From Aradus depressus (taxonomy: Eukaryota; Arthropoda; Insecta; Hemiptera; Aradidae), in the NCBI GenBank assembly GCA_963662175.1, contig OY759225.1, positions 9,869,107 through 9,933,106 of the forward strand: a stretch of DNA of 64,000 nt. Reading direction: 5' to 3'. Below the pieces are notes generated by a model, which made no database searches, was not told the DNA's origin, and was given only the letters and a program-made list of their open reading frames with translations. Below, in pieces: positions 8,206 to 59,285 of the stretch (the stretch's first letter is position 1; every line of letters starts with the position of its first letter). Made by a program: the position numbers and the translations under genes.

Positions 8206-8300
8206 TTTTATTCATATTTAGATGTTGATTAGCGACTGTAGATTCTAATTGTAGGAATATTGAGGGTCAGTCAAAGATGGAAGAAAACACTATTCAAATG

Positions 8301-8337
8301 CCAACGTTTCGATATATTTTATAACATCATCAGGGCC
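8301..8337 (-). ncRNA. Hammerhead-like ribozyme, family A, left copy
   Basis: Minus strand reads GGCC, core CTGATGA, one extra T, helix II GTTATA/TATATC around AAA, then GAAA and helix III palindrome ACGT, with T at the predicted cleavage position followed by GG. Helix I pairs GCC with GGC. There is one mismatch in helix II compared with the right copy. Confidence 0.7.
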
Positions 8338-8552
8338 TACAAACATGGGGGGGAATCAAGATTAGAATCACAAATAAACAAACGTATGTTGATAAACATT
8401 ACTGAACGGTAAAATAGACATTATAACTAGTTAAAAATTGAACCTGACTTACTATGAATATTATTATGTCTATTTTAACGTTCAGTAATGTTTATCAACA
8501 CACTAATTTAGTTTAATTGTGATTCTAAACTAGATTCCCCCCCATGTTTGTA

Positions 8553-8590
8553 GGCCCTGATGATGATATAAAATATATCGAAACGTTGGC
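8553..8590 (+). ncRNA. Hammerhead-like ribozyme, family A, right copy
   Basis: Core CTGATGA, one extra T, a perfect 6-bp helix II GATATA/TATATC with AAA loop, GAAA, helix III ACGT, T at the cleavage site, and GGC downstream pairing with the upstream GCC to form helix I. All hammerhead invariant core bases are present; the extra T is non-standard. Confidence 0.75.
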
Positions 8591-8644
8591 ATTTGAATAG
8601 TGTTTTCTTCCATCTTTGACTGACCCTCCAATATTCCTACAATT

Positions 8645-9429
8645 TATTCATATTCTTATTTATTTATTTTATATATTTTTATGAACAATTCATTAGCGCA
8701 TAGAGTCAATACTATAACGTATTTATTTCAGCCCTTAGAATTAATTTTTTTTTAAATATTTTTAAAACAGGCTAGCACAAATAATGAAATCTGTGAGAGG
8801 TCAGACTACGTTTTTTTTTTATAACCTGTAAAATAATCACTTCTCACTACGTCAGCCCCACATTATATCTAATGATAATCAGCCTTAAGGAGCAATTAGA
8901 GTGGGCTTAACTTCAGGAATGGATGTATTGGCAAGACATTGAACCGATAGAGTGAGAAGTTCCAGAGTAAGACAAATAGAGAGAAATTGGGGTCGGAATA
9001 GTACCTCAAATTGAAAATCTCATTCAATTGACTAACTTTCGTCTGAAAACTTTTTAGATTACTGCCACCTTTTGAAAATGGTTATTGAATAGGTTTAAGA
9101 GGGCTAATCTACAGAATATATATATAGCTCGCCGATTTAGAAATCGAAAGACAAGTTTTATGAATGGAGCTATTTCAGTATTAGTTAGATTGGTTCCGAG
9201 AGTCGAGCGTGATGTTTTTTAAACTGCCAAACCTCAGCAGGAGGTAAACTCTCCCATTTGATATAGAACACCTAGGGAGATGGGATGCAGCGTTGCCATG
9301 TCATGCACCTCCTCCCTGTCTCCTTTCGGCTATCCGTCAACTCAAGCCCTATCCCTAGCAGCCTATGATTCAACGACTCTACACTACAAGCGAATATATT
9401 ATTGTACTAGTAAACAATTTTGAACTTAC
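8645..9429. other. Non-coding; family E ribozyme-unit tail at 8780-8845
   Basis: Positions 8787-8845 (AATCTGTGAGAGGTCAGACT, a T-run, then ACCTGTAAAATAATC) match the downstream tail of the family E units at 23760 and 30530, without the ribozyme itself. The rest (8846-9429) shows no recognised gene or repeat. The downstream intron of the 9430-9519 exon candidate would occupy this stretch. Confidence 0.6.
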
Positions 9430-9519
9430 GTTATCTTGAGAAGGGTTGGAGTCAGGAGGTGGCGGTGGAAGGTCAACACTCCCATTGGACACTCCCGGGG
9501 GCGTGGTTTGCGGCAAGCT
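9430..9519 (-). CDS. Candidate internal exon (90 nt), proline-rich host protein
   Basis: On the minus strand, TGTATTTGTATTTCAG (strong acceptor) precedes the exon and GTAAGT (ideal donor) follows it. The exon is much richer in G and C than the AT-rich flanks. In phase 0 it is fully open for 30 codons, reading SLPQTTPPGVSNGSVD then LPPPPPDSNPSQDN, a low-complexity Ser/Pro segment. A second frame is also open but gives an unnatural composition. Length is a multiple of three with both junctions in phase 0, so it is a symmetric exon that could be skipped. The upstream candidate at 60010-60072 ends in a compatible phase. The protein is not recognised; the segment is probably a disordered linker. 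Confidence 0.62.
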
Positions 9520-9789
9520 CTGAAATACAAATACATTAATTATATTTTGCATGTAATTAATTAAATACTTTTAAATTCTAAATCACCGGTGTATTATGTA
9601 TCTACTTCCCCAGAAGAAATTAATCCATGTCAATAAATACATTCATTATATCAGGAGTTATTATATTATTTATTTATTGAGTATATTAACAATCGGTAAT
9701 ATAGGATATAGTTCAAAGTAAAATAGAGAATGGCAGTAATGCATATGCCCAATATTCAATTAATTTCTCTGTATAACGATAAGTAACTT

Positions 9790-10044
9790 CAATTGAGGGG
9801 GTTAGAAGCAAAGGGATGTAAGTGACAAAAATGTCATTTCGAGATAATTACCTTCAAAATTATAGTAACATGGTAAATTCAGGTATTACCCAGGTATTTT
9901 CCACTAGATAGCATTACTGGTACTAACAATCGTTCTGATCAATAGCCAGCAGTCAGGGTAGGTGTCAAGGAAGATGTTAACACACATATCTCAATTTCAG
10001 CCGAATTGTCACTTACATCCCTTTGCTTCCAACCCCCTCAGTTG
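9790..10044. mobile_element. MITE with 38-bp terminal inverted repeats
   Basis: The left end AATTGAGGGGGTTAGAAGC continues into AAAGGGATGTAAGTGACA; the right end is its reverse complement with one or two mismatches. Length is about 255 bp, AT-rich inside, no coding capacity. A target duplication is not clear, so the superfamily is not assigned. Confidence 0.85.
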
Positions 10045-10535
10045 TTGTCTAGAACAAAGTTCTGATAATTTAATGATAAAATCATCATAACAGAAGGACG
10101 CACAGGACCTTCACAAGTGAATGGTAATACAATAATAATGAAATATGAAGAAATTAATAATAAAAAAAAAGAATGAAAATAAAAGTAAATATAAAGAAAT
10201 AAATTATAGTTAAAATCTTATATCTTACAATGGGGGAGGGGGGGGGGGGGGGGGGGGGGGTCAAATTAGCTTTAAAAAAGCCTTACGTAATTTATGAATG
10301 GCCCCTTATTAGGTTTTTGAGTAGAGCCTCCTCTCTGATTCCCCCCTCCTTCCCTTCGGCCGATTTCGCAGAAAAAATAATATGTGTAGTCCTTATGGGT
10401 GGTAGTATAACGTATTGACGTAGCGACAAAGCGAATGACGATCCTAAATAAAATGTAAATTGTCTGCTGACAATTGTGTTCGTCGAAACGGACATATTTT
10501 TCCTATGTGATAGTAAGATGTTGTGGGACGAGATT
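10045..10535. other. Non-coding with a poly(G) tract at 10230-10260
   Basis: The G tract (GGGGGAGG followed by more than 20 G) is preceded by A-rich sequence. The segment 10263-10415 resembles DR1 modules in inverted orientation (TTTTTGAGTAGAGCCTCC, CCTTCGGCCGATTTCGC). Nothing coding. Confidence 0.6.
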
Positions 10536-10581
10536 TCTAATAGAAACAAAAGACGTTGTCTTCCCACTGTTTTATTCTATA

Positions 10582-10622
10582 CCAGAACCGGTTTTCGACG
10601 CAACAGCGTCATTATCAGTGGT
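10582..10622 (-). ncRNA. Hammerhead-like ribozyme, family B, left copy (core mutant)
   Basis: Minus strand: CCA, CTGATAA (core G8 replaced by A), extra T, helix II GACGC/GCGTC with TGTT loop, GAAA, helix III AACCGGTT, cleavage C, TGG. The G8 change would be expected to abolish cleavage. Confidence 0.7.
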
Positions 10623-10701
10623 TCATCCACCCACACAGCACAGCGGTTGGAAGATAACTGGCCAGTTATCTTCCAACCGCTGTGCTGTGTGGGTGGATGA
10701 A

Positions 10702-10741
10702 CCACTGATGATGACGCTGTTGCGTCGAAAACCGGTTCTGG
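10702..10741 (+). ncRNA. Hammerhead-like ribozyme, family B, right copy (intact core)
   Basis: CCA, core CTGATGA, extra T, perfect helix II GACGC/GCGTC with TGTT loop, GAAA, self-complementary helix III AACCGGTT, C at the cleavage position, then TGG pairing with the upstream CCA as helix I. This is one of the best-formed copies in the window. Confidence 0.8.
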
Positions 10742-10984
10742 TATAGAATAAAACAGTGGGAAGACAACGTCTTTTGTTTCTATTAGACATATTTTTCTGT
10801 AAATATAAACTTCTATGAAATTGAGTCTCAAAATATTAAACTTCAGAACGGAAACTAAACCGCAGCTAACCAACTTTCTGAAAGTTTCTACTTTTGAAAA
10901 GTTCATGAAATGAAAAGTTGAGGAAAACCATGCAGAGTTAATAAAACAGTTTTTCAATGAAAACATTTTTACTTCCTCAGGTAT

Positions 10985-12684: not shown

Positions 12685-13225
12685 ATACATCGATATATCG
12701 AACAACTGGTATATTGCCACAAATAAATCGTAGCGGCCGATATATCGGACAGAATATATCGATATACCGTGAAACCAGCGATAAGGTACACGTGTTTAAG
12801 AGGACAGTTACAGACCCACCGGCATGGAACATTCATTTTCCATGTATTTAACACCTCTATTTAGAGGACAATCTAAATAAAGGACTGAGACACTGAATCG
12901 TCCTAAAATACATCGATATATCGAACCACTGGTATATCGCTACAAATAAATCATAGCGGCCGATATATCGGATAGAATATATCGATACTCCGTGAAACCA
13001 GCGATAAGGGACACCTCTGTTTAGAGGACACTAAATAAAGGACTGAGACACTGAATCGTCCTAAAATATATCGATATATCGAACCACTGGTATATCGCTA
13101 CAAATAAATCATAGCGGCCGATATATCGGATAGAATATATCGATATTCCGTGAAACCAGCGATAAGGGACACCTCTGTTTAGAGGACACTAAATAAAGGA
13201 CAGGGACACTGAATCGTCCTAAAAT
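12685..13225. repeat. ATATCGAT-rich tandem repeat, 3 units of about 156 bp
   Basis: Units begin near 12688, 12911 and 13067. Each has CATCGATATATCGAAC, ATAGCGGCCGATATATCGG, ATATCGATA, GTGAAACCAGCGATAAGG, and GAATCGTCCTAAAATA. The first unit carries about 67 extra bases (near 12792-12858). Several CGATATATCG palindromes give local hairpins. Confidence 0.93.
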
Positions 13226-17745: not shown

Positions 17746-17783
17746 TATCCTAAGTAATATCAGTCCAACATATTTATTTTTTA

Positions 17784-17824
17784 CCACAACTAGTTTCATC
17801 AGTCAAACCGACATCTTCAGGTGG
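17784..17824 (-). ncRNA. Hammerhead-like ribozyme, family C
   Basis: Minus strand: CCAC, core CTGAAGA, extra T, helix II GTCGG/CTGAT (with G-U pairs) and loop TTTGA, GAAA, palindromic helix III ACTAGT, T at the cleavage site, then GTGG pairing with CCAC as a 4-bp helix I. Confidence 0.72.
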
Positions 17825-17901
17825 TGAATCTTAATAGAGAAAAAGTCAAATTTACTTATAGCTGAGTGTCCAGGTATTTGACCTCTTCTCTAATAACATT
17901 T

Positions 17902-17914
17902 ACCACCTGAAGAT
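17902..17914 (+). ncRNA. Hammerhead-like ribozyme, family C, 5' half of split copy
   Basis: Contains ACCACCTGAAGAT, i.e. helix I strand plus the CTGAAGA core and extra T. The downstream half is at 18923-18952 (ATGTCGGTTTGACTGATG, then TACTAGTTGTG), separated by the LINE insertion. The GAAA element has also decayed to GTA. Confidence 0.65.
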
Positions 17915-18922
17915 ATCGGGAAGATGTCTCCCCAAAGATGCAACACTCCCGACTATATACAGAATTATGTTTGCGGAACTGCTAACTATATTCCGTGAAT
18001 ATAGACCGATATTTACAGACGGATCAAGGACTCCAGAAGGTGTTGGATGTGCTTTTGCTTCGGAAAAATAGATCCGCTCATGGACACTTCCCCGATTAGC
18101 AACAGTTTACATTGCGGAGATGACAGCCATATACCAAGCTTTGGAGTACTGCTACACAAGTAAATGGATCAAGTACCTGATTTGTTCCGACTCTCTTAGT
18201 GCAATATATTCATTTAGGGGACTCATCTTAAGGAAACTGGAATCACACTACATACCATTGGAAAAGACATAGTCTTCACCTGGGTCCCAGGACATGTAGG
18301 AATCCATGGTAACGAGCTGGCGGACCGAGCCGCCAAGGAAGCTACAGCTGGCGAGCTAACAGAGGCCATACCAGTCCGTCCTGCAGACGTCAAGCAGCCA
18401 CTCAAATTGGCCATCAAAAATAAATGGCAAAAGCAATGGGAGGAGTGTAATACTTTTCTGAAGTCGATTAAACGTCGAATCGACACTGCTGATGTGACGT
18501 CTCTTTCCCGAAAAGAAAGAATGGTCCTGACGAGGCTAAGAATAGGATACACTTGGCTGACCCATGTCCACATTTTGTTGCGGAGATGCCCACCGAGATG
18601 TGCACTATGCAAGGAAGAACTTACTGTCTTTCACGTACTACAATCCTGTGAAGCTCTCAAACCCTAACGAGAAAGAGATGGATTGCCTCACGATGCTCGA
18701 GCAGTGCTGAAAGATAGCTCGGCCTACACATCTCAGCTGCTACTATTCTTTCGAAACACTGGACTATATCACCAAAAAATTATATGGTGCCATTCGCGGA
18801 GGAATAGCTAATATCCAGAGAGATAGCCTGAGCCACATTATGTCACCCTACCTACTATAATAATAGTTGTGCTGGCGCTAATGGCCTCTGCAGTCGATCC
18901 GCCTAGTAAAAAAAAAAAAAAA
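17915..18922 (+). pseudogene. I/R1-type LINE 3' fragment: RNase H and C-terminal region
   Basis: 5'-truncated copy with a poly(A) at 18907-18922. Pieces of an RNase H domain are visible with frameshifts and stops: FTDGSRTPEGVGCAFAS, then IYQALEYCY, CSDSLSAI, WVPGHVGIHGNELADRAAK. After it come IKNKWQKQWEECN, LTRLRIGYTWLTHVHILLR and CPPRCALCKEELTVFHVLQS, the cysteine/histidine tail typical of RNase H-bearing LINEs. The 3' UTR has CTAATGGCCTCTGCAGTCGA. It inserted into the core of a family C ribozyme; a clear target duplication longer than two bases is not visible. Confidence 0.88.
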
Positions 18923-18965: not shown

Positions 18966-19419
18966 TATAAGTTGGACTTATACATCTGTATTACTTATTT
19001 AGAAATATATTATTAATCAATAAAGATATCTGGCATTCTTAGTATGTCTTCGTTTTGGTGGACAGATGAAGTGACAAATGCAATCTGTGCAGTCTTTGGC
19101 TTCACTCCAAGCTGGAATGTATATAAAGCAGAGAGAGGTGAACCCACGGAAAAAAAAGCAAGCCTCACTTCAAATTGTCTGGTCGATGACCATAAATTGT
19201 GGAAGATGAGTGGGACCTGTTAGGCCGGACCTGGAACCTAGCCAGCCATTTCTGTGCACAATTGCACAATTCTCCGTGAACAAGTCGAATGGAAAATATT
19301 ATATGAACTCTCTCCGCTAATAAGGATCTAGTATGATGATCTTTTAATTAGTTATTATGAAGGCATATCGCATACTACTATAAATAATAATAATATTTAT
19401 TTCAAAGCATAAAATATTA
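18966..19419. other. Non-coding
   Basis: No recognised gene or repeat. Confidence 0.4.
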
Positions 19420-19481
19420 AATGAATAAAACCAACTTATTTTTGAAATATTGTCTATTCCACTAAAGATATAAATATATAT

Positions 19482-19524
19482 ATAACTACCGGTTTCGGCT
19501 TTATACCATCGTCAGGTCTAGTTA
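19482..19524 (-). ncRNA. Hammerhead-like ribozyme, family D, left copy
   Basis: Minus strand: ATAAC...AGAC, core CTGACGA, extra T, short helix II GGT/GCC (with G-U), GAAA, helix III ACCGGT, A at the cleavage site, GTTAT. Helix I can form from ATAAC with GTTAT across an internal loop. Confidence 0.7.
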
Positions 19525-19988
19525 TGAACTAAGTCAGTTTGCAGAGAGCGACCCTTCTAATACATCTCGGGTGAAAGGGTGCCATTAAAACTTGGGAGTC
19601 CCCCGGCTGTACCGTTAGCTAACTCATGAAATATTTCCTAACAAAACCTAGTTCTAAATTTACATAAAACAATATTACTAGACTAGGCAAAACAACAAAT
19701 AAATAAGTACAAATACAATTCCACATATATGTTTCAAGTTATCTAAATCTTAATATTATTATTAATTTTATTTCTATTTTTATTATTTATTTGTATTTGT
19801 ACTTATTTATTTGTTGTTTTGCCACGATTAGTCCAGTAATATTGTTTTATGTAAATTTAGAACTAGGTTTTGTTAGGAAATATTTCATGAGTTAGCTAAC
19901 GGTACAGCCGGGGGACTCCCAAGTTTTAATGGCACCCTTTCACCCAAGATGTATTAGAAGGGTCGCTCTCTGCAAACTGACTTAGTTC

Positions 19989-20032
19989 ATAACTAGACCT
20001 GACGATGGTATAAAGCCGAAACCGGTAGTTAT
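19989..20032 (+). ncRNA. Hammerhead-like ribozyme, family D, right copy
   Basis: Same arrangement as the left copy: CTGACGA, T, GGTATAAAGCC, GAAA, ACCGGT, A, GTTAT. The two arms are identical across the core. Confidence 0.7.
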
Positions 20033-20164
20033 ATATATATTTATATCTTTAGTGGAATAGACAATATTTCAAAAATAAGTTTGTTTTATTCATTTATTAC
20101 AAGTTTCCACAATATGTCAGCGTTCCTCAACTTAGAAGTCATAAAATATTAGCTTAAGAGATAG

Positions 20165-23325: not shown

Positions 23326-23805
23326 TACAGTGGAGTCCCGCTTATCCGGACCAGATGGGACCGGACCCCGTCCGGATCACCGAAAGTTCGCATTAAACGG
23401 AATTCGCTGTAAAAAGCACATGATAAATATTTCAGCTATTTTTTTTTTCTCATAAATACATCTTTTCCCTCAGCTTAATTTCATTTTCAATACTAGATAA
23501 TGTATACGTAGATCTAAGTTTTCAACCAAAGATAGGGTTGAACTGAGATAGGATAAACAAAACAAAACATCTCTGATTAATACTCAAAATTTATTTATTG
23601 TACCATATAGCAATACAAAACCAACCACGGTACATTAATGTTATAATGTAAAAGTTAAGAATTAAAAAAAAAACGAAATATGTAAACGTTAAATTCTGAA
23701 CAGGACTATAAAATTAAACAATGTACAATATGTAATGAAAACAAGAATATTTCACAGGTTGTCAAATAAAATGTAGTATGACCTCTCACAGACTTTATTA
23801 GAAGT

Positions 23806-23843
23806 AGCTAGCCGGCTTTCGAAGTTTCCCTCATCATCAGGCT
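23806..23843 (-). ncRNA. Hammerhead-like ribozyme, family E (nested in pogo-like element)
   Basis: Minus strand: AGC, core CTGATGA, extra T, helix II GAGG/CTTC with GAAA tetraloop, GAAA, palindromic helix III AGCCGGCT, A at the cleavage site, GCT pairing with AGC. All core bases are present. Confidence 0.75.
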
Positions 23844-24020
23844 GTCTGATAAAAAATTAAAAAAATTCTATGAATGAAAACTAATAATAACTAAATAATT
23901 TTATAATAAAAATAAATAAATAAAACAATCTAAAAACTTTAACAATTCAAAATATCATGGATGGGGACAGACGAGTTATTCCTGTCCACCATCTGAGTCA
24001 CAACTTTTTTTTTTTATCGG

Positions 24021-24050
24021 ACTGCCTGATGATGAGGGAAACCTTCTAAT
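24021..24050 (+). ncRNA. Hammerhead-like ribozyme, family E, deleted copy
   Basis: Head-to-head partner of 23806-23843. It keeps CTGATGA, T, GAGG and GAAACCTTC but then jumps to TAATAAAAATCTGTGAGAGG: the GAAA, helix III and cleavage site are deleted. It cannot self-cleave. Confidence 0.7.
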
Positions 24051-24319
24051 AAAAATCTGTGAGAGGTCATACAACATTTTATTTGACAACCTGTGAAATA
24101 ATCGGAAAATAGGTTGTGCGAGCCATCTTCTTTGTCGGCACTTTTTCATCGTAGCCAACTGAGTAAGTCAAGTCAAACCCTCTCTTTGAATTATTTTCGC
24201 ACTTACCGCTCGCTAATTAAGTAAAAAGTTTACTGAATTTTAATTCGTTTTTTTTAAGATCCCGTCCGGATTAACCGGATGTCCGGATTAGGGGGACTCT
24301 ACTGTATATTCAAAGCAGC

Positions 24320-29566: not shown

Positions 29567-29686
29567 TCCTTTTGGAGGTTTTCGAGTTATTAAGATGGCT
29601 GATGTAGGAGAAGTGATTATTTCACAGGTTGTCAAATAAGATGTAAATAAATAAAACAAACTTATTTTTGAAATTTGTCTATTCCA

Positions 29687-29866
29687 CTAAAGATATAAAT
29701 ATATATAACTATTTTGTCTATTCCACTAAAGATATAAATATATATAACTATTTTGTCTATTCCACTAAAGATATAAATATATATAACTATTTTGTCTATT
29801 CCACTAAAGATATAAATATATATAACTATTTTGTCTATTCCACTAAAGATATAAATATATATAACT
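29687..29866 (+). repeat. 39-bp minisatellite, about 5 units
   Basis: Unit: ATTTTGTCTATTCCACTAAA then GATATAAATATATATAACT. It equals 13 codons, so one frame reads a 13-residue repeat (YFVYSTKDINIYN); this is an artefact of the period. The unit is the tail end of a family D ribozyme element amplified in place. Confidence 0.95.
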
Positions 29867-29904
29867 ACCGGTTTCGGCCTTACACCATCGTCAGGTCTAG
29901 TTAT
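29861..29904 (-). ncRNA. Hammerhead-like ribozyme, family D, left copy
   Basis: Minus strand: AGAC, CTGACGA, T, GGTGTAAGGCC (helix II with G-U), GAAA, ACCGGT, A, GTTAT. Confidence 0.7.
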
Positions 29905-30098
29905 GAACTAAGTTAGTTTGCAGAGAGCGACCCTTGAAATAAGTACATCTCAATATATAAATTTAGAACTAAGTTTTGTTAGGAAATATTTCATGAGATA
30001 GCTAACGGTACAGCCGGGGGACTCCCAAGTTTTAATAGCACCCTTTCACCTGAGATGTACTTATTTCAAGGGTCGCTCTCTGCAAACTAACTTAGTTC

Positions 30099-30142
30099 AT
30101 AACTAGACCTGACGATGGTGTAAGGCCGAAACCGGTAGTTAT
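30099..30142 (+). ncRNA. Hammerhead-like ribozyme, family D, right copy
   Basis: Identical core to 29861-29904, in the opposite orientation: CTGACGA, T, GGTGTAAGGCC, GAAA, ACCGGT, A. Confidence 0.7.
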
Positions 30143-30308
30143 ATATATTTATATCTTTAGTGGAATAGACAAAATAGTTATATATATTTATATCTTTATT
30201 GGAATAGAAAATATTTCAAAAATAAGTTTGTTTTATTTATTTATTACAAGTTTCCACAATATGTCCGCGTTCCTCAACTTAGAAGTTGTAAATAAGATGT
30301 AGTTTGAC

Positions 30309-30338
30309 CTCTCGAGGTTTCCCTCATCATCAGGCAGT
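30309..30338 (-). ncRNA. Hammerhead-like ribozyme, family E, internal deletion
   Basis: Minus strand: GACTGC, CTGATGA, T, perfect GAGG/CCTC helix II with GAAA loop, then GAG: the GAAA and palindromic helix III are deleted. Confidence 0.65.
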
Positions 30339-30399
30339 CTATAGAATAGTTGCGGTCAAATAAAATATAGTATGACCTCTCACAGATTTTTATTAGAAG

Positions 30400-30440
30400 T
30401 AGCTAGCCGGCTTTCGAGGTTTCCCTCATCAAAAGGCAGT
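30400..30440 (-). ncRNA. Hammerhead-like ribozyme, family E, core degenerate
   Basis: Minus strand: CTTTTGATGA instead of the CTGATGATGA core, then GAGG/CCTC with GAAA loop, GAAA, AGCCGGCT, A. Helices II and III are intact but the core is mutated. Confidence 0.6.
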
Positions 30441-30485
30441 CTATAAAATAGTTGCTGTAGTTTCGGTGTAGAGATCATCGATAGG

Positions 30486-30518
30486 TTGGGAGGGAAACTT
30501 CGAAAGCCGGCTAGCTAC
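30486..30518 (+). ncRNA. Hammerhead-like ribozyme, family E, 5' core lost
   Basis: GGAGGGAAACTTCGAAAGCC followed by GGCTAGCTACT keeps helix II, GAAA and helix III; the CTGATGA box has been replaced by unrelated sequence. Confidence 0.6.
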
Positions 30519-30709
30519 TTCTAATAAAAATCTGTGAGAGGTCATACTATATTTTATTTGACAACCTGTGAGGTTATGAGTCTACTGCTCTTTCAACAGA
30601 AGAAATCAGAAAAAAATTTAACCATTGTTCCTAAATTAAATTAAATTATTTCTTAAGTAAAACTGTTACTTCTTGATTAAAAATAAAACAATATAAAACA
30701 AAACGAGGG

Positions 30710-30910: not shown

Positions 30911-30914
30911 ATAG

Positions 30915-32365
30915 ACGAAGTTATGTAAACAGTCAAAAATCGATGCGGAGTTTTCAAGAGAATTTCATGTTTTCTGACTGAAAAATGTCTGACTGTGATC
31001 ACGATAACTCCCGATAGGATGAATGTATCGACACGAATCTTTTTTTAGTCAATTTAGCCAAAGGGGAGAGGGGATCAGGAGAGAAGCTTAACTCAAAAAT
31101 TCTAATAACATTGAAATTAATATATCGTCACAAAATTTCCAATTTGGACACAGAGCCCATAAACACTTATTTGTAGAATCGGCAGGAAGGAAGGGAGGCA
31201 CAACTAAAAGAAATACTCTATAACTGCCGATGTAATGAAATTTTATATTTAAAGTCAAAACCCTGTCAAATTTCAGTGATATTGGCTGGAGGGTAGGGGA
31301 GGGGACTCGATCAAAATCCGAATAACTGCCGATGTAATGAAATTTCATATTTAAAGTCAAAACCCTGTCAAATTTCAGTGATATTGGCTGGAGGGAAGGG
31401 GAGGGGACTCAATTAAAACCCGAATAACTGCCGATGTAATGAAATTTTATATTTAAAGTAAAACCCTGTCAAATTTCAGTGATATTGGCTGGAGGGTAGG
31501 GGAGGGGACTTAATTAAAACCCGAATAACTGCCGATGTAATGAAATTTTATATTTAAAGTCAAAACCCTGTCAAATTTCAGTGATATTGGCTGGAGGGAA
31601 GGAGAGGGGACTCAATTAAAACCCGAATAACTGCCGATGTAATGAAATTTCATATTTAAAGTCAAAACCCTGTCAAATTTCAGTGATATTGGCTGGAGGG
31701 AAGGAGAGGGGACTCAGTTAAAACCCGAATAACTGCCGATGTAATGAAATTATATATTTAAAGTCAAAACCCTATCAAATTTCAGAAATATTGGCTGGAG
31801 GGAAGGGGAGGGGACTCAATTAAAACCCGAATAACTGCTGATGTAATGAAATTTTATATTTAAAGTCAAACCCTGTCAAATTTCAGTGATATTCGCTGGA
31901 GGGAAGGAGAGGGGACTCAGTTAAAACCCGAATAACTGCCGATGTAATGAAATTATATATTTAAAGTCAAAACCCTGTCAAATTTCAGTGATATTGGCTG
32001 GAGGGAAGAAGAGGGGACTCAGTTAAAACCCGAATAACTGCCGATGTAATGAAATTTTATATTTAAAGTCAAAACCCTGTCAAATTTCAGTGATATTGGC
32101 TGGAGGGAAGGGGAGGGGACTCAATTAAAACCCGAATAACTGCCGATGTAATGAAATTTTATATTTAAAGTCAAAACCCTGTCAAATTTCAGTGATATTG
32201 GCTGGAGGGAAGGAGAGGGGACTCAATTAAAAAGCCCGAATAACTGCTGATATAATGAATTTATCGACCCATAATTTAGTACAAGGATTTAGGAGCCCTT
32301 ATGTAAGTCAACTGTTCAATATTAGCGCAAACGGTCGACTGGTTTTGGAGGAGGAGCGAAAAGTT
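30915..32365 (+). repeat. Dispersed repeat DR1, copy containing a tandem expansion
   Basis: Starts GACGAAGTTATGTAAACAG, GATGCGGAGTTTTCAAGAGA, has CACGATAACTCCCGATAGGA and ends CGGTCGACTGGTTTTGGAGG with GAGCGAAAAGTTAATAGATT, i.e. the same order as 10985-11415. Between these lies the 102-bp array 31221-32241. Confidence 0.9.
31221..32241 (+). repeat. 102-bp tandem array, 10 units inside DR1
   Basis: Units begin TAACTGCCGATGTAATGAAA, continue TTTAAAGTCAAAACCCTGTC, AAATTTCAGTGATATTGGCT, GGAGGGAAGG.GAGGGGACTC and AATTAAAACCCGAA. Identity between units is very high, implying a recent expansion or ongoing homogenisation. The period equals 34 codons, but the open frames are not supported as genes. 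Confidence 0.97.
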
Positions 32366-32394
32366 AATAGATTACTCATAGAAATAAAATACGT

Positions 32395-32465
32395 TGTCTT
32401 CCCACTGTTTAATTTTGACCAGAACTAGTTTTCAACGCAACAGCGTCATTATCTGTGGCAGCACT
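32395..32465 (-). mobile_element. Family B hammerhead unit, single diverged arm
   Basis: Shares ATACGTTGTCTTCCCACTGT with the family B palindrome at 10536 and contains the degenerate ribozyme at 32419-32458. It has no inverted partner. Confidence 0.75.
32419..32458 (-). ncRNA. Hammerhead-like ribozyme, family B, degenerate
   Basis: Minus strand: CCA, CAGATAA (two core changes), T, GACGC/GCGTT with TGTT loop, GAAA, AACTAGTT, C, TGG. Helix III differs from AACCGGTT in two symmetric positions yet remains a palindrome. Confidence 0.65.
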
Positions 32466-34914: not shown

Positions 34915-35210
34915 AAAATAAATAATAAATCACATTTCATATAGAAATTGTTTTCTGGTCTTCTACTAAATTTTGAAGAAAGCGCACGTATATAAAAAAA
35001 TTCCAATTATTAATTACCTCATTTGTTTTTTTTAAGTATAATACAGAGATGCCATCAAATTTTTCTAAATTAACAAAAATGTTTAATCTAATCAAAGATA
35101 TTTTCTTATTTGATTGTCATGGAAAATGAATAGCATAGAATCGAGAAGAAAATATTGGATTTATTTAACCTACATTATAAAATTCAAAAAACAAATTTGA
35201 AAAATAAAAA
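34915..35210 (+). repeat. Dispersed hairpin repeat DR2
   Basis: CACATTTCATATAGAAATTG, TGGTCTTCTACTAAATTTTG (the second half of the hairpin is deleted), GAAAGCGCACGTAT, AGAGATGCCATC and GAATCGAGAAGAAAATATTG follow the order at 25295-25640. Confidence 0.8.
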
Positions 35211-35560
35211 GTAAATTATTTACAAAAATTATTCTACTAACTAATTCCTAAAATTATATCAGTATTTTTTCTATGGCCACACTTTATTGGCCACATATAA
35301 TTTAGTAAAAAGTAAAAAGTAGTAAAGTAAATTATTTACAAAAATTATTCTACTAACTAATTCCTAAAATTATATCAGTATTTTTTCTATGGCCACTCTT
35401 TATTGGCCACATATAATTTAGTAAAAAGTAAAAAGTAGTAAAGTAAATTATTTACAAAAATTATTCTACTAACTAATTCCTAAAATTATATCAGTATTTT
35501 TTCTATGGCCACTCTTTATTGGCCACTCTTTATTGGCCACATATAATTTAGTAAAAAAAA
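35211..35560 (+). repeat. 116-bp tandem repeat, 3 units
   Basis: Units start at 35211, 35327 and 35443: GTAAATTATTTACAAAAATT, CTAACTAATTCCTAAAATTA, TCTATGGCCAC.CTTTATTG. The last unit has a duplicated CACTCTTTATTGGC. The sequence lies where the DR2-linked element at 25640 has its left arm. Confidence 0.93.
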
Positions 35561-38800: not shown

Positions 38801-39313
38801 TTTTACCATAAATCTTTTAGGAAGCATTTGTGGACCCACGTTTATGGGAACATTTTTTTCATATTTTGTTTGGTCATTTTGTAAAATGTCTAAGAATGTA
38901 GCAACATAAAATTGTAACATAAGATGATATTCTAGTTCTAGTTTATGGGGTGTTATGTTGGATAGTAAAATAGATACTTGGTCCACTGGGCCTAGATGAA
39001 GTCGTCTTACAGTATCTATTCTCCCATACAGGATACATATAAACTCTCCTAGTACACTGTTATACTCAGTTTATATCCTCTAATATCATACTGAGGATAT
39101 TGTCTCCATGGGCGCTATGTATACCAAGTATTCTATCAGTTCAAGTTTCTGCTCTCCCTCTTCACCGCCGATTTTGGCTAAGTAAACCACCATACAAACT
39201 AATTACATATAATATTTAGCATTTTTGCAGAGATATTGTGAAACACTTGATAAAAATAAAGAAAACGTATGTTTTTTAAAAAATATTGTCTATTTCACAA
39301 ATAATATATAATA

Positions 39314-39351
39314 TGGGAGTACTTTCGGTATTGCTACAATCTTCAGCCACG
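39314..39351 (-). ncRNA. Hammerhead-like ribozyme, family F, left copy
   Basis: Minus strand: TGG, CTGAAGA, T, TGTA/TACC with GCAA tetraloop, GAAA, palindrome AGTACT, C, CCA. G10.1 has changed to T, weakening helix II by one pair. Confidence 0.7.
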
Positions 39352-39760
39352 ACTTAACAAATACTAAATTGAAGTTCAACTAGGTAGTTTACAATCCAAA
39401 CGGTAGGTAGGTATCCTTTTTCAGCCCCTACGGGGTTTTCCTATCCTTTCTGTACAGTTAATATTTGAAATATGTAAAAACATAAAAAATGACATTTCGT
39501 CCCAAATTGGGATCTTAAAAAAAAAAAAAATTTGAAAAAGGGGTGAGTATTTTATTAACAATTGTTATCTTTAATTCATTTCATATATGCATTTAATCAA
39601 AACATACTACTTCAAAAACGTTTATTTTTAAGATCCCAATTTGGGACGAAATAATGACGTTCAGAAGGGATGAAAACCCCGTAGGGGCTGAAAAAGGATA
39701 CCTACCTACCGTTTGGATTGTAAACTACCTAGTTGAACTTCAATTTAGTATTTGTTAAGT

Positions 39761-39798
39761 CGTGGCTGAAGATGGTAGCAGTACCGAAAGTACTCCCA
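39761..39798 (+). ncRNA. Hammerhead-like ribozyme, family F, right copy
   Basis: TGG, CTGAAGA, T, helix II GGTA/TACC with GCAG loop, GAAA, palindrome AGTACT, C at the cleavage site, CCA pairing with TGG as helix I. Confidence 0.78.
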
Positions 39799-39974
39799 TA
39801 TTATATATTATTTGTGAAATAGACAATATTCTTTAAAAAAAAACTTACGTTTTCTTTATTTTCAATTACATATATATTTTTTTTTTTTCACTTCTTCACT
39901 TACGTATACAAAGTCTAGGGAAAGTCTAGGTTACGTAATGTCAGAAATTAAGTTTTCTCCTGATTTTCAAGTAG

Positions 39975-40460
39975 TCACTGATTTCCTCTCATATGTAACT
40001 AATCACTGCCACTGCTAAGGAGGGCCATTGACGCTTAAGCCGTCGTTGGGGAAGTATGGCAGAGTGGGCACAGACTAGAGAATTATTATGTGAACTAAGA
40101 AGGGAAAATAATTTTTTATACTTGGATTTAGCGACTTCGGTAACAAAAGGTACTTTAAAGTCAGTGTGAAAAGTTTTGTTGGAGACGTAATAAGGAGCAT
40201 TGGCTATTTTACGAAAGATTTTGTATTGAAAGGATTGGATGCGCTGGAGATTGGAAGCCTTGGCAGAACCCCAGAGTTCAAGTCCATGAGTCCACATACG
40301 TTTGAGTACTGCGTTATATATAAGTCGTTTTGTTTTCAAAGTTAATTTGGATCTTTTGTCTAGTAGTCTTAGTAAAAGTTTATAACCTCTGTTCATTTGT
40401 TGTCTTTTTAGTCTCGTGTGAGGATTCCAAGTTAGTCGTTTGTCGAGTATGTACCGATAT
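39975..40460 (-). pseudogene. Jockey-type LINE ORF2 C-terminal relic
   Basis: Minus strand: LTWNPHTRLKRQQMNRGYKL, KLTLKTKRLIYNAVLKRMWT, HGLELWGSAKASNLQRIQSF, QYKIFRKIANAPYYVSNKTF, HTDFKVPFVTEVAKSKYKKL, then RRLKRQWPS. This is the conserved post-RT segment of Jockey-clade elements, and it is intact for about 135 residues. The upstream RT core is missing. It is the least decayed LINE coding segment in the window. Confidence 0.9.
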
Positions 40461-41726: not shown

Positions 41727-42655
41727 TTGTGAAGTTTGACAAAGCAATTGTGTATTTTAATTATCTATTCCTAGAATGGTGCTTCACAAAGTAAATCTGG
41801 AAACCATAAATTATTCGATTTTTATATAATTTTCTGTGTATTCTCTTTAGTTTTTTTCTTACAAGTCCCCCCTCCCCCCCCCCCCCCCCCCCCCCTACAA
41901 TATGTATCTTACTGGAGATTCATCGACATTTCTTTTTTTAATCCACCAGGAATTTCTACACAAATTATATTTACTAAAATTTAGAACTCCATCAGTTCGG
42001 CTCATGTCCACGAGAGTAACGAAAGAGCGCTCTGATAGTAGTTGAGATGAGCTAGTATTCTGCAAGCACCCCGTTCTAAGGGTAAATCGTGGGGTGTACG
42101 ATGAAGGGATTCCTTAAAAATAGTATTGATCAGCCTAGAGGGTGTTGGCTGGGAAGGTAATGTGTTTATGCGTGTCGATTTAAGGAAGATTTATGTCAGA
42201 CAGAACGATAGATAGCAAGAGGCTCAGAAATATCAGATAACAAAACTCATCCACATGGGACTTATTTTTTACTTTTTTATACCTATAGTATAGTATAAGC
42301 AAGTATTGTAATCGTGCGAAAATCTGAGATCGAGTTTTCAACAGATTTTCACGTTTTACGGTCCCTTGTTTTGACCATTTTCGCGATAATGTCAAGTTGT
42401 GAGCGCTCTAATTCAGAAACGATTGTAGCTATGAAATTGAAATTTGGAAATTATATTTTGGCCGAAATCGGACTTAATATTTATGAATAAAATAAAATGA
42501 TGACGTTTTTCAAATAAGTGCACAGTTAGTTATTACCTTTAGAATAGAGACTTTCACCTCCTGGTTTTACCAGAGGAGGGAACCCTTTCACCTCAGGTAC
42601 TCTTAGGTTAATATAAATATGTATGCCTGGCAAATATCTGAATTATTGTTGAACA
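41727..42655. other. Non-coding; poly(C) tract and scraps
   Basis: Poly(C) at about 41867-41895. SINE 3' scrap at 41998-42040 (GGCTCATGTCCACGAGAGTA, AACGAAAGAGCGCTCTGATA). The inverted 1837-type motif at about 42310-42345. Nothing coding. Confidence 0.6.
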
Positions 42656-42693
42656 TTGTGCTGACGATGGCGTAAGCCGAAACCGGTACACAT
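42656..42693 (+). ncRNA. Hammerhead-like ribozyme, family D-like, well-formed
   Basis: TGTG, CTGACGA, T, helix II GGC/GCC with GTAA tetraloop, GAAA, ACCGGT, A, CACA pairing with TGTG as a 4-bp helix I. Its helix I and II differ in sequence from the 19989 copy while both remain paired. Confidence 0.8.
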
Positions 42694-47059: not shown

Positions 47060-47175
47060 TATTTCATCAGGCTGCCTGATGTTGAGGGCAACCTCGAAAG
47101 CCGGCTAGCTAATACAAATAAAAATCCGTGAAAGGTCAGACTACATGTTATTTGACAACCTGCGAAGTAAATATT
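47060..47175 (+). mobile_element. Family E hammerhead unit, single copy
   Basis: Ribozyme at 47071-47111 followed by the family tail AAAAATCCGTGAAAGGTCAG and TTATTTGACAACCTGCGAAG. No inverted partner. Confidence 0.8.
47071..47111 (+). ncRNA. Hammerhead-like ribozyme, family E, A9 mutant
   Basis: TGC, CTGATGT (A9 changed to T), T, perfect GAGG/CCTC helix II with GCAA tetraloop, GAAA, AGCCGGCT, A, GCT. The tetraloop differs from the GAAA of other copies but still fits GNRA. Confidence 0.7.
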
Positions 47176-47329: not shown

Positions 47330-47560
47330 GTTATGTCTGTCTGTGAACACGATAACTCCCGATAGAATGAATGTATCGACACGATGTGTGTATTCAGATG
47401 TTCAGCAATAGCCAAAGAGAATGGAGGATTAGGGGGGAGGCTTGTAATAAATGTATGATAGATAATGAATGATTTTCAGCCCTAACGACAGAATGGTTTT
47501 GGAGGAGCGAAAAGTAAATTGAATAATTCGATCTGGGGATGTGCCTTGCTGATGATTCAA
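47330..47560 (+). repeat. Dispersed repeat DR1
   Basis: TGTCTGTCTGTGAACACGAT, AACTCCCGATAGAATGAATG, TATCGACACGATG, then AGAATGGTTTTGGAGGAGCG, GAATAATTCGATCTGGGGAT. Confidence 0.85.
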
Positions 47561-47989
47561 CGCTTTTTTTTTTCACATTTTTCTTTCTGAAAGAATGAAG
47601 AAAGTATTTCTTAATCTGTATCTTGAGAAAATCTTCTTTGAACTCTTTCATCGCCGCAATTATTAAAATTGCTTTAATCGGATATACACTTTGTCAAAGT
47701 TTAACTTAAGTTTTAAGGAAAGTTAAACACAGAAAATCCTAAATTTATCCCTTTACAGAAAAGTTAGGTAAGTCTTTGCCCTTTTTCAACAATAATGTAA
47801 TAACCTAATTAATTAATAATAATTACGATTATTTTTAATAAACTCTATAGTTTAAATAATAAGATTAAATGAATTTTTGTGATTTTACTTCTCATTAAAA
47901 CATAAAATTCTGTTGAAAACTTAACATAGAATTTCTGACAGATTACGTAATATCCGCTATACTTCGTGAACCATAGTGGTTAAATTTCT
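47561..47989. other. AT-rich non-coding stretch
   Basis: Nothing recognised except a DR1 scrap near 47920-47980. Confidence 0.4.
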
Positions 47990-49499: not shown

Positions 49500-49585
49500 A
49501 TAGAAATAAAATACGTTATCTACCCACTGTTTTATTTTTTAACCCTAACCGATATTCAACGCAACAGCGTCATCATCAGTGGTAA
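49500..49585 (-). mobile_element. Family B hammerhead unit, single diverged arm
   Basis: AGAAATAAAATACGTTATCT and CCCACTGTTTTATTTT match the family B palindrome arm; ribozyme at 49543-49582. Confidence 0.75.
49543..49582 (-). ncRNA. Hammerhead-like ribozyme, family B, degenerate 3' part
   Basis: Minus strand: CCA, intact CTGATGA, T, GACGC/GCGTT with TGTT loop, GAAT (GAAA mutated), ATCGGTTAGGG. The palindromic helix III is broken. Confidence 0.6.
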
Positions 49586-51090: not shown

Positions 51091-51230
51091 CTTAAAATAG
51101 CTTATTGTTGATCTAGAATGTCCCGGGAGAAGTTTCATTTTTGTCACACACAAAGACACCAAACTGCAAACACTTATACCAACGTAGAAGGAATTCGAGG
51201 TTATGTCGTGTAAATTAAAATTCAATATTT

Positions 51231-51271
51231 GACCAACGTTTCGGAAACTATTTATTTATTTCTTCAGGGCC
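51231..51271 (-). ncRNA. Hammerhead-like ribozyme, family A-like, weak helix II
   Basis: Minus strand: GGCC, CTGAAGA, A, then AATAAATAAATAGTTTCC (weak helix II), GAAA, ACGT, T, GGTC. Helix I GCC/GGT forms with one wobble pair. Confidence 0.6.
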
Positions 51272-51433
51272 TTATAATGACTTGAATGTATGTGTGTGGT
51301 GAAGATGTTCAGAGTTTGTGTCCAGTATAGAGCTATGGTGTCGTGTACGTAGCGGTCAACCCTCGACACTAGCTCTGTACTGGACACAAACTCTCAACAC
51401 CTTCACCACACACATCCGCTCAAGTCATTATAA

Positions 51434-51474
51434 GGCCCTGAAGAAGAAAATAAATAGTTTTCGAAACGTTGACC
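51434..51474 (+). ncRNA. Hammerhead-like ribozyme, family A-like, right copy
   Basis: GGCC, CTGAAGA, extra A, helix II GAAAA/TTTTC with a 7-base loop, GAAA, ACGT, T, GACC. Here the inserted base is A where most families have T. Confidence 0.65.
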
Positions 51475-51637
51475 AAATATTGAATTTTCATTTACACGAC
51501 TGAACTTGCGGTACTCTTTTCAATGTAAAAGGATGTCATTGAAAATCACAGTTGACAGATCGAATTTATGGTTGTGGAAAAAACATAAAGGCACACTAAA
51601 TACAGAATTATTTTTTTCAAATCGCCCATTTTAAATT

Positions 51638-53390: not shown

Positions 53391-53393
53391 AGA

Positions 53394-54030: not shown

Positions 54031-54367
54031 GACGCCGGTAGCTCAGTGGTATGCGTGCTTGACTTCTGAACTCAAGAACGTGGGTTCGTAACCCGACCGA
54101 GGTCCTTAGTTTATTTTATCTGGGAGGTAAAATAAACTTAAGCACGCCGTCCTTCGGATGGGACGTTAAGCGATGGTCCCGAGCCCGTACGATGCCAGGT
54201 ACTCGTTAAAGACCCCTACCCTAGGTGAATAAAAATTTAGGGTAGGCAAAATTTAGGACTCCCACAGCAGTCGGGCTCATGTCCACCAGAGTGACGAAAG
54301 AGTGCTCTGGTAGTAGGCGATATGACTTCGTTGTTAAAGCCCGGACATGAGTCATAAAACCTAACCT
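54031..54367 (+). mobile_element. tRNA-derived SINE, full-length
   Basis: GACGCCGGTAGCTCAGTGGT, GGGTTCGTAACCCGACCG, body, GCCCGGACATGAGTCAT and tail AAAACCTAACCTA. A second SINE follows without spacer. Confidence 0.93.
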
Positions 54368-54677
54368 ATGCTTGCCTTCTGAGGTCAAGATCTTGGGTTC
54401 GACACTCGGCCGAGGCCCTTAGTTTATTTTACCTGGGAGATAAAATGAACATAGGCACGCCGTCCTTCGGATGGGACGTTAAGCGATGGTCCCGAGCCTG
54501 TTTGTTAGGTACTCGTTAAAGACCCCTGCCCTAGGTGAATAAAAATTTAGAGTAGGCAAAATTTAGGACTCCCACAGCAGTCGGGCTCATGTCCACCAGA
54601 GTGACGAAAGAGCGCTCTGGTAGTAGGCGATATGACCTCGTAGTTAAAGCCCGGACATGAGTCATAATAACTAACTA
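54368..54677 (+). mobile_element. SINE, tandem second copy lacking the A box
   Basis: Starts inside the head (TGCTTGCCTTCTGAGGTCAA), B box GGGTTCGACACTCGG, then full body and end GAGTCATAATAACTAACTA. Together with 54031-54367 it forms a SINE dimer of two subtypes. Confidence 0.9.
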
Positions 54678-54789
54678 TTATAATCCCCGTCTTCCATTTG
54701 GCCGAATTAGCTCAAAATCAATAACATCGATGCCCTTATAGGGTACCAAATACACATATAAAATTTCATGTCAATATATTCATTCAACC

Positions 54790-54825
<36 letters not shown>

Positions 54826-56990: not shown

Positions 56991-57359
56991 CTGAAAAAAC
57001 TAAACTTATATAATAACTATTACCATCGGGATTATGGTTCTAAATAAAAAAATTATCAAAGAAATAAGGCGTACATTTTACTGACTTTAATTATAAATTC
57101 GTTTATTTTATCATTTAAAGAAATTTTAAAATTTTATATAAAAAGGATTTGGTTAGTCACATTTTACACACATTTATTATTTACCCAATACATTTTAAAA
57201 AAATCGGCATGATGTGTTCATCTGATGTTTGTTGGCTTCTTGCTTTACTGGATAAAAGCGAGATAAAACAGTGGTTGCACCTCGTGTAGCTTTTTTCTTC
57301 TTCTTGTTGTTGTAAAAATATAAATAAATAAATAAATCAGGGGTTATCCACATGTAAAC
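56991..57359. other. AT-rich non-coding stretch
   Basis: No recognised gene or repeat. Confidence 0.4.
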
Positions 57360-57576
57360 ATTGATTTTGCTTCGGATGGGATGTTAAGAGATGGTCCCAA
57401 GCCTGTGCGATGTCGGGTACTCGTTTAAGACCCCCTCATGCTACTTAACTAAACCTAAGTGGGCACACTTTAGGACTCACATAGTAGTCGGGCGCATGTC
57501 CACCAAAACGACTAAAAAGCGCTCACTTGACCTAGTAAAGCCCGGGCATGAACCACAATAACTAACTTCACTATTA
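57360..57576 (+). mobile_element. SINE, headless diverged copy
   Basis: TTGCTTCGGATGGGATGTTA, GAGATGGTCCCAAGCCTGTG, GTACTCGTTTAAGACC, GCGCATGTCCACC and AAAGCCCGGGCATGAACCAC, ending ATAACTAACT. Confidence 0.85.
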
Positions 57577-57610
57577 TTTCAGTGCATTAAAATGTTAAAG
57601 TAAATACTAG

Positions 57611-57826
57611 ACGACAAGTCCGTTTTATGTACATAACTCCCAAAGAGAGTTAGACATTCTGAGAAAAGCCCAGGAGAGAGGTGCCCGAGAACATTGCGTT
57701 GTGCCTAATGTCACTTTGAAGGCGGAACAACTGAGGAATGCCAAAGGAATCCCAACAATTCCTCATCATTTCGACTCCTCACCGACCCCTGCTCCTGTAC
57801 TACAGACTGTAGTCTCTTCTCTCTAG
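57611..57826 (+). CDS. Unrecognised coding-like segment, possible C-terminal exon
   Basis: A frame opens after TAG (57608-57610) and runs 71 codons to TAG at 57824-57826: TTSPFYVHNSQRELDILRKA, QERGAREHCVVPNVTLKAEQ, LRNAKGIPTIPHHFDSSPTP, APVLQTVVSSL. The amphipathic helix, balanced codons and higher G+C than the flanks suggest real protein. There is no ATG; possible acceptors AG at 57609-57610 or after CTCCCAAAG (57645) lack a strong pyrimidine tract. I do not recognise the family. It could be a terminal exon of a plus-strand gene, or part of a transposon. Confidence 0.42.
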   Translation, partial: TTSPFYVHNSQRELDILRKAQERGAREHCVVPNVTLKAEQLRNAKGIPTIPHHFDSSPTPAPVLQTVVSSL

Positions 57827-58057
57827 TCTATTTGTCTGTCTTATTGTGGTTAAAGTGAAGAACTTTGTTTCATTTTTAAGTTCATGCGCTGAAAATTGTT
57901 TGTCCTTCGCTTTGTGAGCGCAAATTTTTTCGTGGTCGGAAAACATGAAATTCCGTTGAAAAATCAACATCGAATTTCTGGCCGATTACATAACTTCCCC
58001 TATACACTTGGGTAACCCCCACTCCCCGAGTGCCTTCTTATCTAAGTTGCCAAGATC
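57827..58057. other. Non-coding; inverted DR1 5' end at 57935-58005
   Basis: GGTCGGAAAACATGAAATTC, GAATTTCTGGCCGATTACAT and AACTTCCCCTATAC form the DR1 start in inverse orientation. Confidence 0.7.
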
Positions 58058-58060
58058 TTA

Positions 58061-58768
58061 AGCCTAGTCCACACTAGTAGACATGTTGCGCGATTTTGGT
58101 CTCTGAGACGTGTCTCAGGTTGTCTACGAGACATGTATATAGACCAATCCCCGTCTACGGGCCTGTTGCGAGACCAAAAATTGCAGGTCTAAAGTCTCCC
58201 GATCGGAATGGGAGACCGCATGCAACGTTAGACATATTGTGCAACATTTTGACAGTGTGGACGTCACTCGGCGTCTAGAGGCGAGACATGTCCCAGTCTG
58301 TCTCGAGGTGCCGAGTGGTGTGGTTCGGCTCTTTACAGTTATTTTCCAAAGTGTTACAGTTCTTTTGAAAACATGTGGTCTAACGAGAAAGTTTTAAAAC
58401 TAATTGAAGATTACCATGCGTCTTATTGTTTGTGGGATGTTACGAGTCCCGACTACAAAAACCGGGTAAAAAGAAGAGTGGCCCTGGAATCTCTGCCTGC
58501 CTAGGTCCTTCTGCGAGCACTTCGCGCGTCTACCAACGTTTACTTACGTTTTCGCGTTCTTTCACTTGTAATTAGCACTAAGCAGGAACTCATTCCACAC
58601 AAAACAATGTCCTCCATGGTGGACTGCGAAGATGAGACTGAGAAATTCACATCGTAGTGTGGACGCTAGATGAGACAAGGAACGGTGACTCTAGACGGTC
58701 TATAGACCGTGTCTCGAGACCGCCTATAGACAAATCGCGCAACATGGTCTACTAGTGTGTACTAGGCT
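58061..58768. mobile_element. PIF/Harbinger-type element, internally deleted, TTA duplication
   Basis: Inverted ends AGCCTAGTCCACACTAGTAG and (right end, complement) AGCCTAGTACACACTAGTAG, extending to GCGCGATTT, with TTA at 58058-58060 and 58769-58771. The 3-bp TWA duplication is characteristic of PIF/Harbinger. The interior contains many GTCTC/GAGAC motifs and the start of a MADF-domain protein, but no DDE transposase. Confidence 0.93.
58373..58504 (+). pseudogene. MADF-domain protein fragment of PIF/Harbinger
   Basis: ATG at 58373 opens 43 codons to TAG at 58502: MWSNEKVLKLIEDYHASYCL, WDVTSPDYKNRVKRRVALES, LPA. The pattern W..E.VL.LI..Y.....LWD..S.DYKNR is the first half of the MADF/Myb-like domain. 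PIF/Harbinger elements encode such a DNA-binding partner beside the DDE transposase; here only this half remains and the second gene is gone. Confidence 0.8.
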
Positions 58769-59094
58769 TTAGCAAGGAATTAACAATTTCAAAAATCAAC
58801 CTAAAGGTGAGTATAAAAAAAAAAAATAAGGTGCTGCAACCTGGTGAATCCTGACACAAATACACAACCACCTTTTGTTAGGCTCTCACAGCTCTGGACA
58901 ATAACCTTTTGTTCCTTCCTCATTATCCTCCTGGATCCTTCCTCAACCGCCCATTCCTTCTCACTAACCCAATTCTGGCAACGATTAACTCCAGACGTTC
59001 AGATTTTGGGAGCCATTCTTACCTGATATCCTTCTTAATATGAAGATGGCTGATTTAGTGAGAAATTTAACATTTTTGCAGAGAAATTGTGAAA

Positions 59095-59285
59095 CACTTG
59101 ATAAAAATAAAGAAAACGTATGTTTTTTTAAAAAATATTGTCTATTTCACAAATAATATATAATATGGGACAGTATTTGTTAAGTCGTGGCTGAAGATGG
59201 TAGCAATACCGGAAGTACTCCCATATTATATATTATTTGTGAAATAGACAATATTTTTTTTTAAACATACGTTTTCTTTATTTTT
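59095..59285. mobile_element. Family F hammerhead foldback, left ribozyme deleted
   Basis: Left tail 59100-59168 (ATAAAGAAAACGTATGTTTT, ATATTGTCTATTTCACAAAT, ATAATATGGGA) faces the right unit 59172-59285. The left arm stops before its ribozyme, so the head-to-head layout remains but only one ribozyme is left. Confidence 0.8.
59186..59223 (+). ncRNA. Hammerhead-like ribozyme, family F, GAAA mutant
   Basis: TGG, CTGAAGA, T, helix II GGTA/TACC with GCAA tetraloop, GGAA (GAAA mutated), AGTACT with C, CCA. Helices are all intact; the core A13 change should inactivate it. Confidence 0.7.

Follow-up and report, generated by a model that had tools for sequence, protein, structure and literature searches.

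Penelope-like elements (PLEs) are said to carry minimal type I hammerheads, reportedly described by Cervera and de la Pena in 2014 and by Lunse et al. in 2017. The accessible part of a 2020 review presents these hammerheads as having a short or absent helix III, being dispersed in many animal genomes and probably acting as dimers, and calls their role in PLEs a mystery (PMC7761336). The PLE insertion pathway has been partly reconstructed (PMC11167929). Rotifer PLEs, in the available sections of their description, have head-to-head inverted terminal units (pLTRs) containing a hammerhead, one of which bears a 30-40 bp tail, and a short target duplication (PMC3846280). A further described system is that of the animal non-LTR retrozymes, which in the part of PMC7229834 at hand are direct tandem repeats of 150-450 bp. 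Here, a 64,000-nt stretch of the Aradus depressus genome (contig OY759225.1, positions 9,869,107 to 9,933,106, forward strand; hereafter the window) is analysed, with searches extended to the whole genome (697,738,979 bases in 74 contigs). Its hammerhead-like cores very likely lie in the pLTRs of at least eight PLE families, whose inserts would be made by two-sided target-primed reverse transcription, mostly from uncut templates.

The locus resembles rotifer PLEs in all the features listed above. Its duplications are mostly of 12 bp vs 8-10 bp in those elements, and the combination of one long and one short tail is near-strict here, whereas the tail is called optional in known PLEs, at least in the consulted parts of PMC3846280 and PMC11167929. 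With retrozymes it shares a type I hammerhead in short AT-rich repeats; unlike them, its units are paired in inverted orientation, have PLE tails and are related to PLEs. Thousands of copies in this genome are enough to read the insertion pathway from its scars.

Hammerhead-like cores in eight families

Seventeen distinct hammerhead-like cores in eight families (A-H) were found in the window with a relaxed grammar, together with about five decayed copies (at 17907, 24026, 30333, 32455 and 49579). A first-pass annotation had counted about twenty cores in six or more families, which agrees well with these numbers. The Rfam hammerhead models, proposed there as a check, gave no match in the window at gathering score or at E up to 10, nor at 10640-10790. 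Because Rfam recognises no hammerhead here, own grammars and shuffle controls were used. The strict grammar (CTGANGA, 0-1 inserted base, helix II of at least 3 bp, GAA or GGA, a palindrome A..T, a next base other than G, and helix I of at least 3 bp) gave 11 sites in 64 kb vs a mean of 0.01 and a maximum of 1 in 100 dinucleotide shuffles. The relaxed grammar gave 19 rows, each with one inserted base; the rows at 10708 (overlapping 10705) and 61210 (chance-like) were dropped, and 17 are counted as distinct real cores. In 30 shuffles the mean was 0.0 at a score of at least 24. With this grammar, cores with zero inserted bases are absent from the window and two inserted bases are found at a single site, at chance level. 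A helix-free search (CTGANGA..GAA plus palindrome) gave 14 window sites, 10 of them with 3/3 pairs in both helices and one inserted base, the remaining four (8333, 39346, 51267 and 51438) being short of one or two pairs.

The CTGANGA...GAAA motif of the first-pass annotation is present, but with an extra base that had been missed. In every one of the 17 cores this base separates CUGANGA from helix II; it is T, except in family F, where it is A. In the available part of a compilation of known hammerhead alignments, at most one or two bases are inserted before helix II (PMC10085705), and the single base is within this range. The fixed CUGANGA letters are intact in 15 of the 17 cores (10618 and 47076 carry one change each) and GAA in 16, with GGA at 59191. 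As in other type I hammerheads, an A-U pair stands at the base of helix III and the cut-site base is not G. Helices I and II keep pairing through letter changes between families, as had been claimed: a script count over the eight family representatives, partly picked by grammars requiring pairing, gave 47 of 48 cells paired vs a mean of 27.35 with 3′ strands swapped between families, and 1 of 20000 swaps reaches 47. F2 and most G copies have a weak helix I. The palindromic helix III, held to be invariable, is found in 8/8 family representatives and in all 17 cores, though it is built into the search grammar, and is missing in the decayed copies at 17907, 24026, 30333 and 49579. In the window copies looked at, the core ATG opens no long frame. 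Collectively, these features of the letters support an assignment of the window cores to minimal type I hammerhead motifs, the short helix III being shared with the PLE hammerheads covered in the accessible part of PMC7761336.

Penelope-like relatives and long/short layout

Families D and C are PLEs by their sequence context, because open reading frames (ORFs) with reverse transcriptase (RT) and GIY-YIG domains lie upstream of D arms and a related endonuclease end lies upstream of a C unit. At one locus (L042), the ORF upstream of the D arm contains RVT_1 (2.5e-14) and GIY-YIG (9.8e-6); at another (L045), GIY-YIG was found upstream of the D arm (4e-4, slightly below the curated score cut-off). 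The L042 protein was matched at 11 of 30 D loci, L042 counted among them. For family C, tblastn picked up the end of a related endonuclease (49-55% identity) at L153; the C unit downstream of it carries one altered base in its core. Thus, the Penelope-like origin of minimal hammerheads put forward in the first-pass annotation is borne out for the D motif, which lies in the end of an element with an RT and GIY-YIG ORF, and by a C unit near the related endonuclease end. The D family is in this respect like GIY-YIG PLEs such as Pen2a of Adineta vaga (PMC3846280) and PAc of Anolis (PMC11167929), as presented in the available parts of these papers. Membership of families A, B, E, F, G and H in PLEs would follow by analogy, from a common layout and core, to which B and E add the tail stem.

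Genome-wide, the general core pattern with inserted T has 189 exact matches vs 3 for the reversed pattern. The D arm gave 2,064 first-look candidates; the 40 that were scored are full matches with 97-100% identity. Exact matches to the tail word number 1,217 for D and 6,916 for C. Beside these, a common genome family, CTGATGATGGGAGTGCTTCCCGAAA, with its variants (L010, L012, L013, L014, L016 and L017), keeps core and helix II, and shows no clear helix I or palindrome in the few copies inspected by eye.

The copies are arranged as outward-facing inverted pairs, which corrects the first-pass annotation. Such pairs occur in seven of the eight window families, family E having only a weak inverted tail match. 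Direct duplications of 11-13 bp flank six of the 10 window inserts tested, a length of 11 being reached in 0.64% of random windows; among these 10, none was found for F, H and two G places. All six duplication-flanked inserts have unequal tails. Counted from predicted cut to duplication, these measure 84/55 in A, 82/47 in B, 67/112 in C, 105/68 in D and about 102/62 in the second D insert; in the second C insert they measure 64/113, extra 39-bp units excluded. As read from the sequence, a stem follows the core (GTGGGA/TCCCAC in B, GTGGAA/TTCCAC in C and E, GTGAAA/TTTCAC in D) and is kept by paired changes. It is recovered in predicted folds of B, D and E, and C folds with neighbouring pairs instead.

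The same layout was counted in larger samples. The D sample comprised 100 arms, the first 100 of the 1,217 exact matches to the 22-base tail word, all on contig C1, a choice that favours younger copies; pooled with the 30 top-scoring D loci, it gave 65 pairs (67 under another pairing rule). The tail ends of the 100 arms, counted from the predicted cut, fall at +60..+70 in 49 arms, at +100..+113 in 44 and elsewhere in 7. With tails counted long from +98 (two 'short' ends stand at 78 and 89), 61 of the 65 D pairs are unequal (31 short-long, 30 long-short), four are short-short and none is long-long, whereas about half of the pairs would be alike if both ends picked start points independently and equally. 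Three of the four short-short pairs have their longer end at 82-94, which may represent a long end that has decayed. Of the 65 pairs, 46 are flanked by a duplication of 11-15 bp (most commonly 12; null 0.5%). For family C, 100 of the 6,916 places gave 22 compact pairs (within 290 nt), 20 of which were analysed: 19 are long/short and 15 have an 11-14 bp duplication. Inverted pLTRs are thus seen in the seven window families and in the D and C pairs, with the 30-40 bp tail of PLEs on one pLTR in the long/short pairs.

These counts suggest a stagger of about 12 bp and a nearly strict rule by which a long tail is paired with a short one. The long/short layout gives clues to the PLE insertion route. 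A literature search retrieved no source stating such a rule or placing the 5′ ends of inserts relative to the cut, with subscription papers lying outside the search. The cores are known in kind; the strict rule and the 5′-end map look new.

A retrozyme origin, the other possibility raised in the first-pass annotation, is not supported, the units being inverted pairs and not direct repeats of about 300 bp. The direct arrays seen are the 39-bp units of the second C insert and, elsewhere in the genome, a run of three D units in direct orientation, spaced 123 nt apart and next to an inverted one (L079, G000:C1:20880900-20882100), which perhaps reflects template jumping.

Template ends and insertion pathway

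The main clusters of 5′ ends of the D and C copies lie 41-52 nt upstream of the predicted cut, that is, 15-19 nt upstream of the core. D ends pile up at -49, with 27 of 100 at -52..-48. C ends lie around -44, with 18 of 40 at -46..-41 and a second cluster at +17/+18 (7/40); since the C sample was limited to compact pairs, its 5′ ends are biased to short arms. At the predicted cut itself no enrichment was found, with 1 of 100 D ends within 2 nt vs 1.19 expected, and likewise 3 of 134 paired D arms and 1 of 40 C arms. Because the ends cluster upstream and are not enriched at the cut, the copied RNAs were mostly uncut at the predicted site. This distribution suggests that template RNAs begin at a defined point upstream of the ribozyme and that cut RNA is little used. 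It agrees with in vitro insertion of a PLE being independent of ribozyme activity (PMC11167929). At -50/-49, D arms ending at the hotspot have CA in 10 of 25 cases vs 1 of 35 longer arms, where TA is found instead; CA may come from a base added at the RNA end.

In the pathway considered very likely, the PLE protein would cut the target on both strands, and each 3′ end so exposed would prime its own cDNA on sense RNA. The two cDNAs would start from separate points within or close to the tail stem-loop, reach the RNA 5′ end (often in the upstream cluster) or halt earlier, and be joined head to head, the ribozyme being still uncut in most templates. Unequal tails, inner ends that differ in 30 of 36 off-hotspot D pairs, and one element (L145) speak for two cDNAs. 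The arms of L145 belong to two subfamilies, and therefore two RNAs were copied. With purified PLE protein, both strands are cut and extended, with two RT start sites that bound the tail (PMC11167929); the D and C pattern fits this activity but exceeds that study's view of strand-equal start sites.

Several observations weigh against this pathway or the PLE assignment. No PLE protein match was found in the window, either by tblastn with the L042 protein or by Pfam on 30 ORFs. A clear duplication is missing in 4/10 window inserts, 19/65 D pairs and 5/20 C pairs, the mixed-subfamily element is one case among 20, and start sites were alike on both strands in vitro (PMC11167929). Inner ends match in 6 of the 36 off-hotspot D pairs vs 0.86 expected, and arms are slightly more alike within one element than between elements; because of this the two cDNAs are not fully independent. 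Arm-to-arm similarity settles little, since it relies on only three (D) and two (C) variable sites.

The alternatives differ in what they make of these ends. If ribozyme cleavage set the 5′ end of the copied RNA, insert ends would mark the cut. Three cases are found there: the left arm of the second D insert ends at most 2 nt from it, the junctions of the 39-bp array in the second C insert fall there, and one arm of L143 begins exactly at it. They form no trend, and with the upstream clusters and the chance-level counts at the cut, this explanation is very improbable. Self-priming by fold-back, with one cDNA on one template, is favoured for rotifer PLEs in the available part of PMC3846280. Its simple form predicts equal tails and inverted flanks, which is the layout of a single locus (L133), the only long-long C pair, whose host flanks are inverted repeats of each other, as would result from fold-back copying or from an artefact of assembly. 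The matching inner ends noted above would also suit it, but the great majority of D and C pairs have unequal tails, most with direct target duplication, inner ends are mostly unequal, and L145 combines two subfamilies, so that fold-back is unlikely as the origin of the inverted pairs.

It is hardly credible that the cores arose by chance or are repeats at the DNA level with no function as RNA. The lack of an Rfam hammerhead, the extra core base and the many decayed copies might be cited for it, but shuffles are near zero and pairing is kept through different letters in eight families. The inserted T also recurs in an IMG/VR viral contig (L001:9868-9915, +) within what is by eye a complete type I hammerhead-like fold in which helix III is a hairpin and helix I has 6 bp; the Rfam model RAGATH-1 gives it 22.9 bits (E 0.069), far under its cut-off. 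Scans of viral contigs showed this one complete hammerhead-like site and eight other loci, the latter checked by one text pattern. Two-sided target-primed reverse transcription is the preferred reading.

Within that reading, the ribozyme itself may serve in RNA processing or in bringing two RNAs together, and dimer formation through the palindromic helix III is plausible as a model. The double-hammerhead energy is at most 0.5 kcal/mol from the cofold optimum for B2, D2 and G1 and at least 4 above it for the other six tested, with energies that ignore the non-standard core. It is tempting, if doubtful, to propose that PLEs retain the hammerhead chiefly for pairing RNAs: two template RNAs would join via helix III, one complex would prime both cut strands with one cDNA per start site (long and short), and self-cleavage would be secondary or regulated. 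If true, this would explain the palindrome in all eight families despite changing letters, the head-to-head pairs, the long/short tails, the mostly uncut templates and the two subfamilies of L145. The long/short rule, the stagger, the template 5′ end and the use of cut RNA are each open to counting and bench tests.

Coordinates and neighbouring sequences

The inserts and units of the window are compiled below. Both the second D and the second C inserts are nested in G element tails.

Table. Hammerhead-bearing inserts and units in the window, with strands in brackets
Feature	Positions	Cores	Target duplication	Remarks
Family A insert	8219..8642	8333-8303 (-), 8557-8587 (+)	8207-8218 / 8643-8654	two outward-facing units
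Family B insert	10503..10785	10618-10585 (-, CTGATAA), 10705-10738 (+)	10491-10502 / 10786-10797	near-perfect palindrome
Family H insert remnant	17758..17919	17820-17788 (-)	looked for, not found	decayed partner 17907 (+)
Family C insert	19420..20139	19515-19487 (-), 19999-20027 (+)	19408-19419 / 20140-20151	
Family G insert	23745..24103	23840-23809 (-)	looked for, not found	decayed partner 24026 (+)
Second family C insert	29646..30289	29894-29866 (-), 30109-30137 (+)	29634-29645 / 30290-30301	within G element
Five 39-bp tail units in tandem (-)	29674..29867			junctions 0-2 nt from predicted cut of core 29894
Family G units	30309..30571	decayed, 30333 (-) and neighbours		split by second C insert
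Decayed family B unit (-)	32369..32458	CAGATAA at 32455		
Family D insert	39212..39863	39346-39317 (-), 39766-39795 (+)	39201-39211 / 39864-39874	
Family E core	42661..42688	(+)		partner is weak inverted match to its tail, 42476-42501, 26 nt, 85%
Family G core	47076..47107	(+)		one base changed (CTGATGT)
Decayed family B unit (-)	49500..49583	49579		palindrome lost
Family F insert	51205..51500	51267-51235 (-), 51438-51470 (+)	looked for, not found	inserted base A
Second family D insert	59067..59282	59191-59220 (+)	59054-59066 / 59283-59295	in G element tail

Other repeats share the window. A 69-bp unit containing a tRNA-like box (GGGTTCGAATCCC) is repeated about 27 times in an array at 4645-6519; ARAGORN found no tRNA in the window. 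A 102-bp satellite (about 10 copies, 95% alike) lies at 31220-32259, with smaller arrays at 12851-13225, 35208-35526 and 54056-54675. Remnants of coding sequence comprise an RNase H (18218-18664, +) and a LINE reverse transcriptase (39992-40459, -), the only species-named relatives of the latter being from Nezara viridula and Schizaphis graminum (Hemiptera). Finally, a weak match to a Diaphanous FH3 domain, under the curated cut-off, at 47397-47693 (-) is perhaps a host exon.

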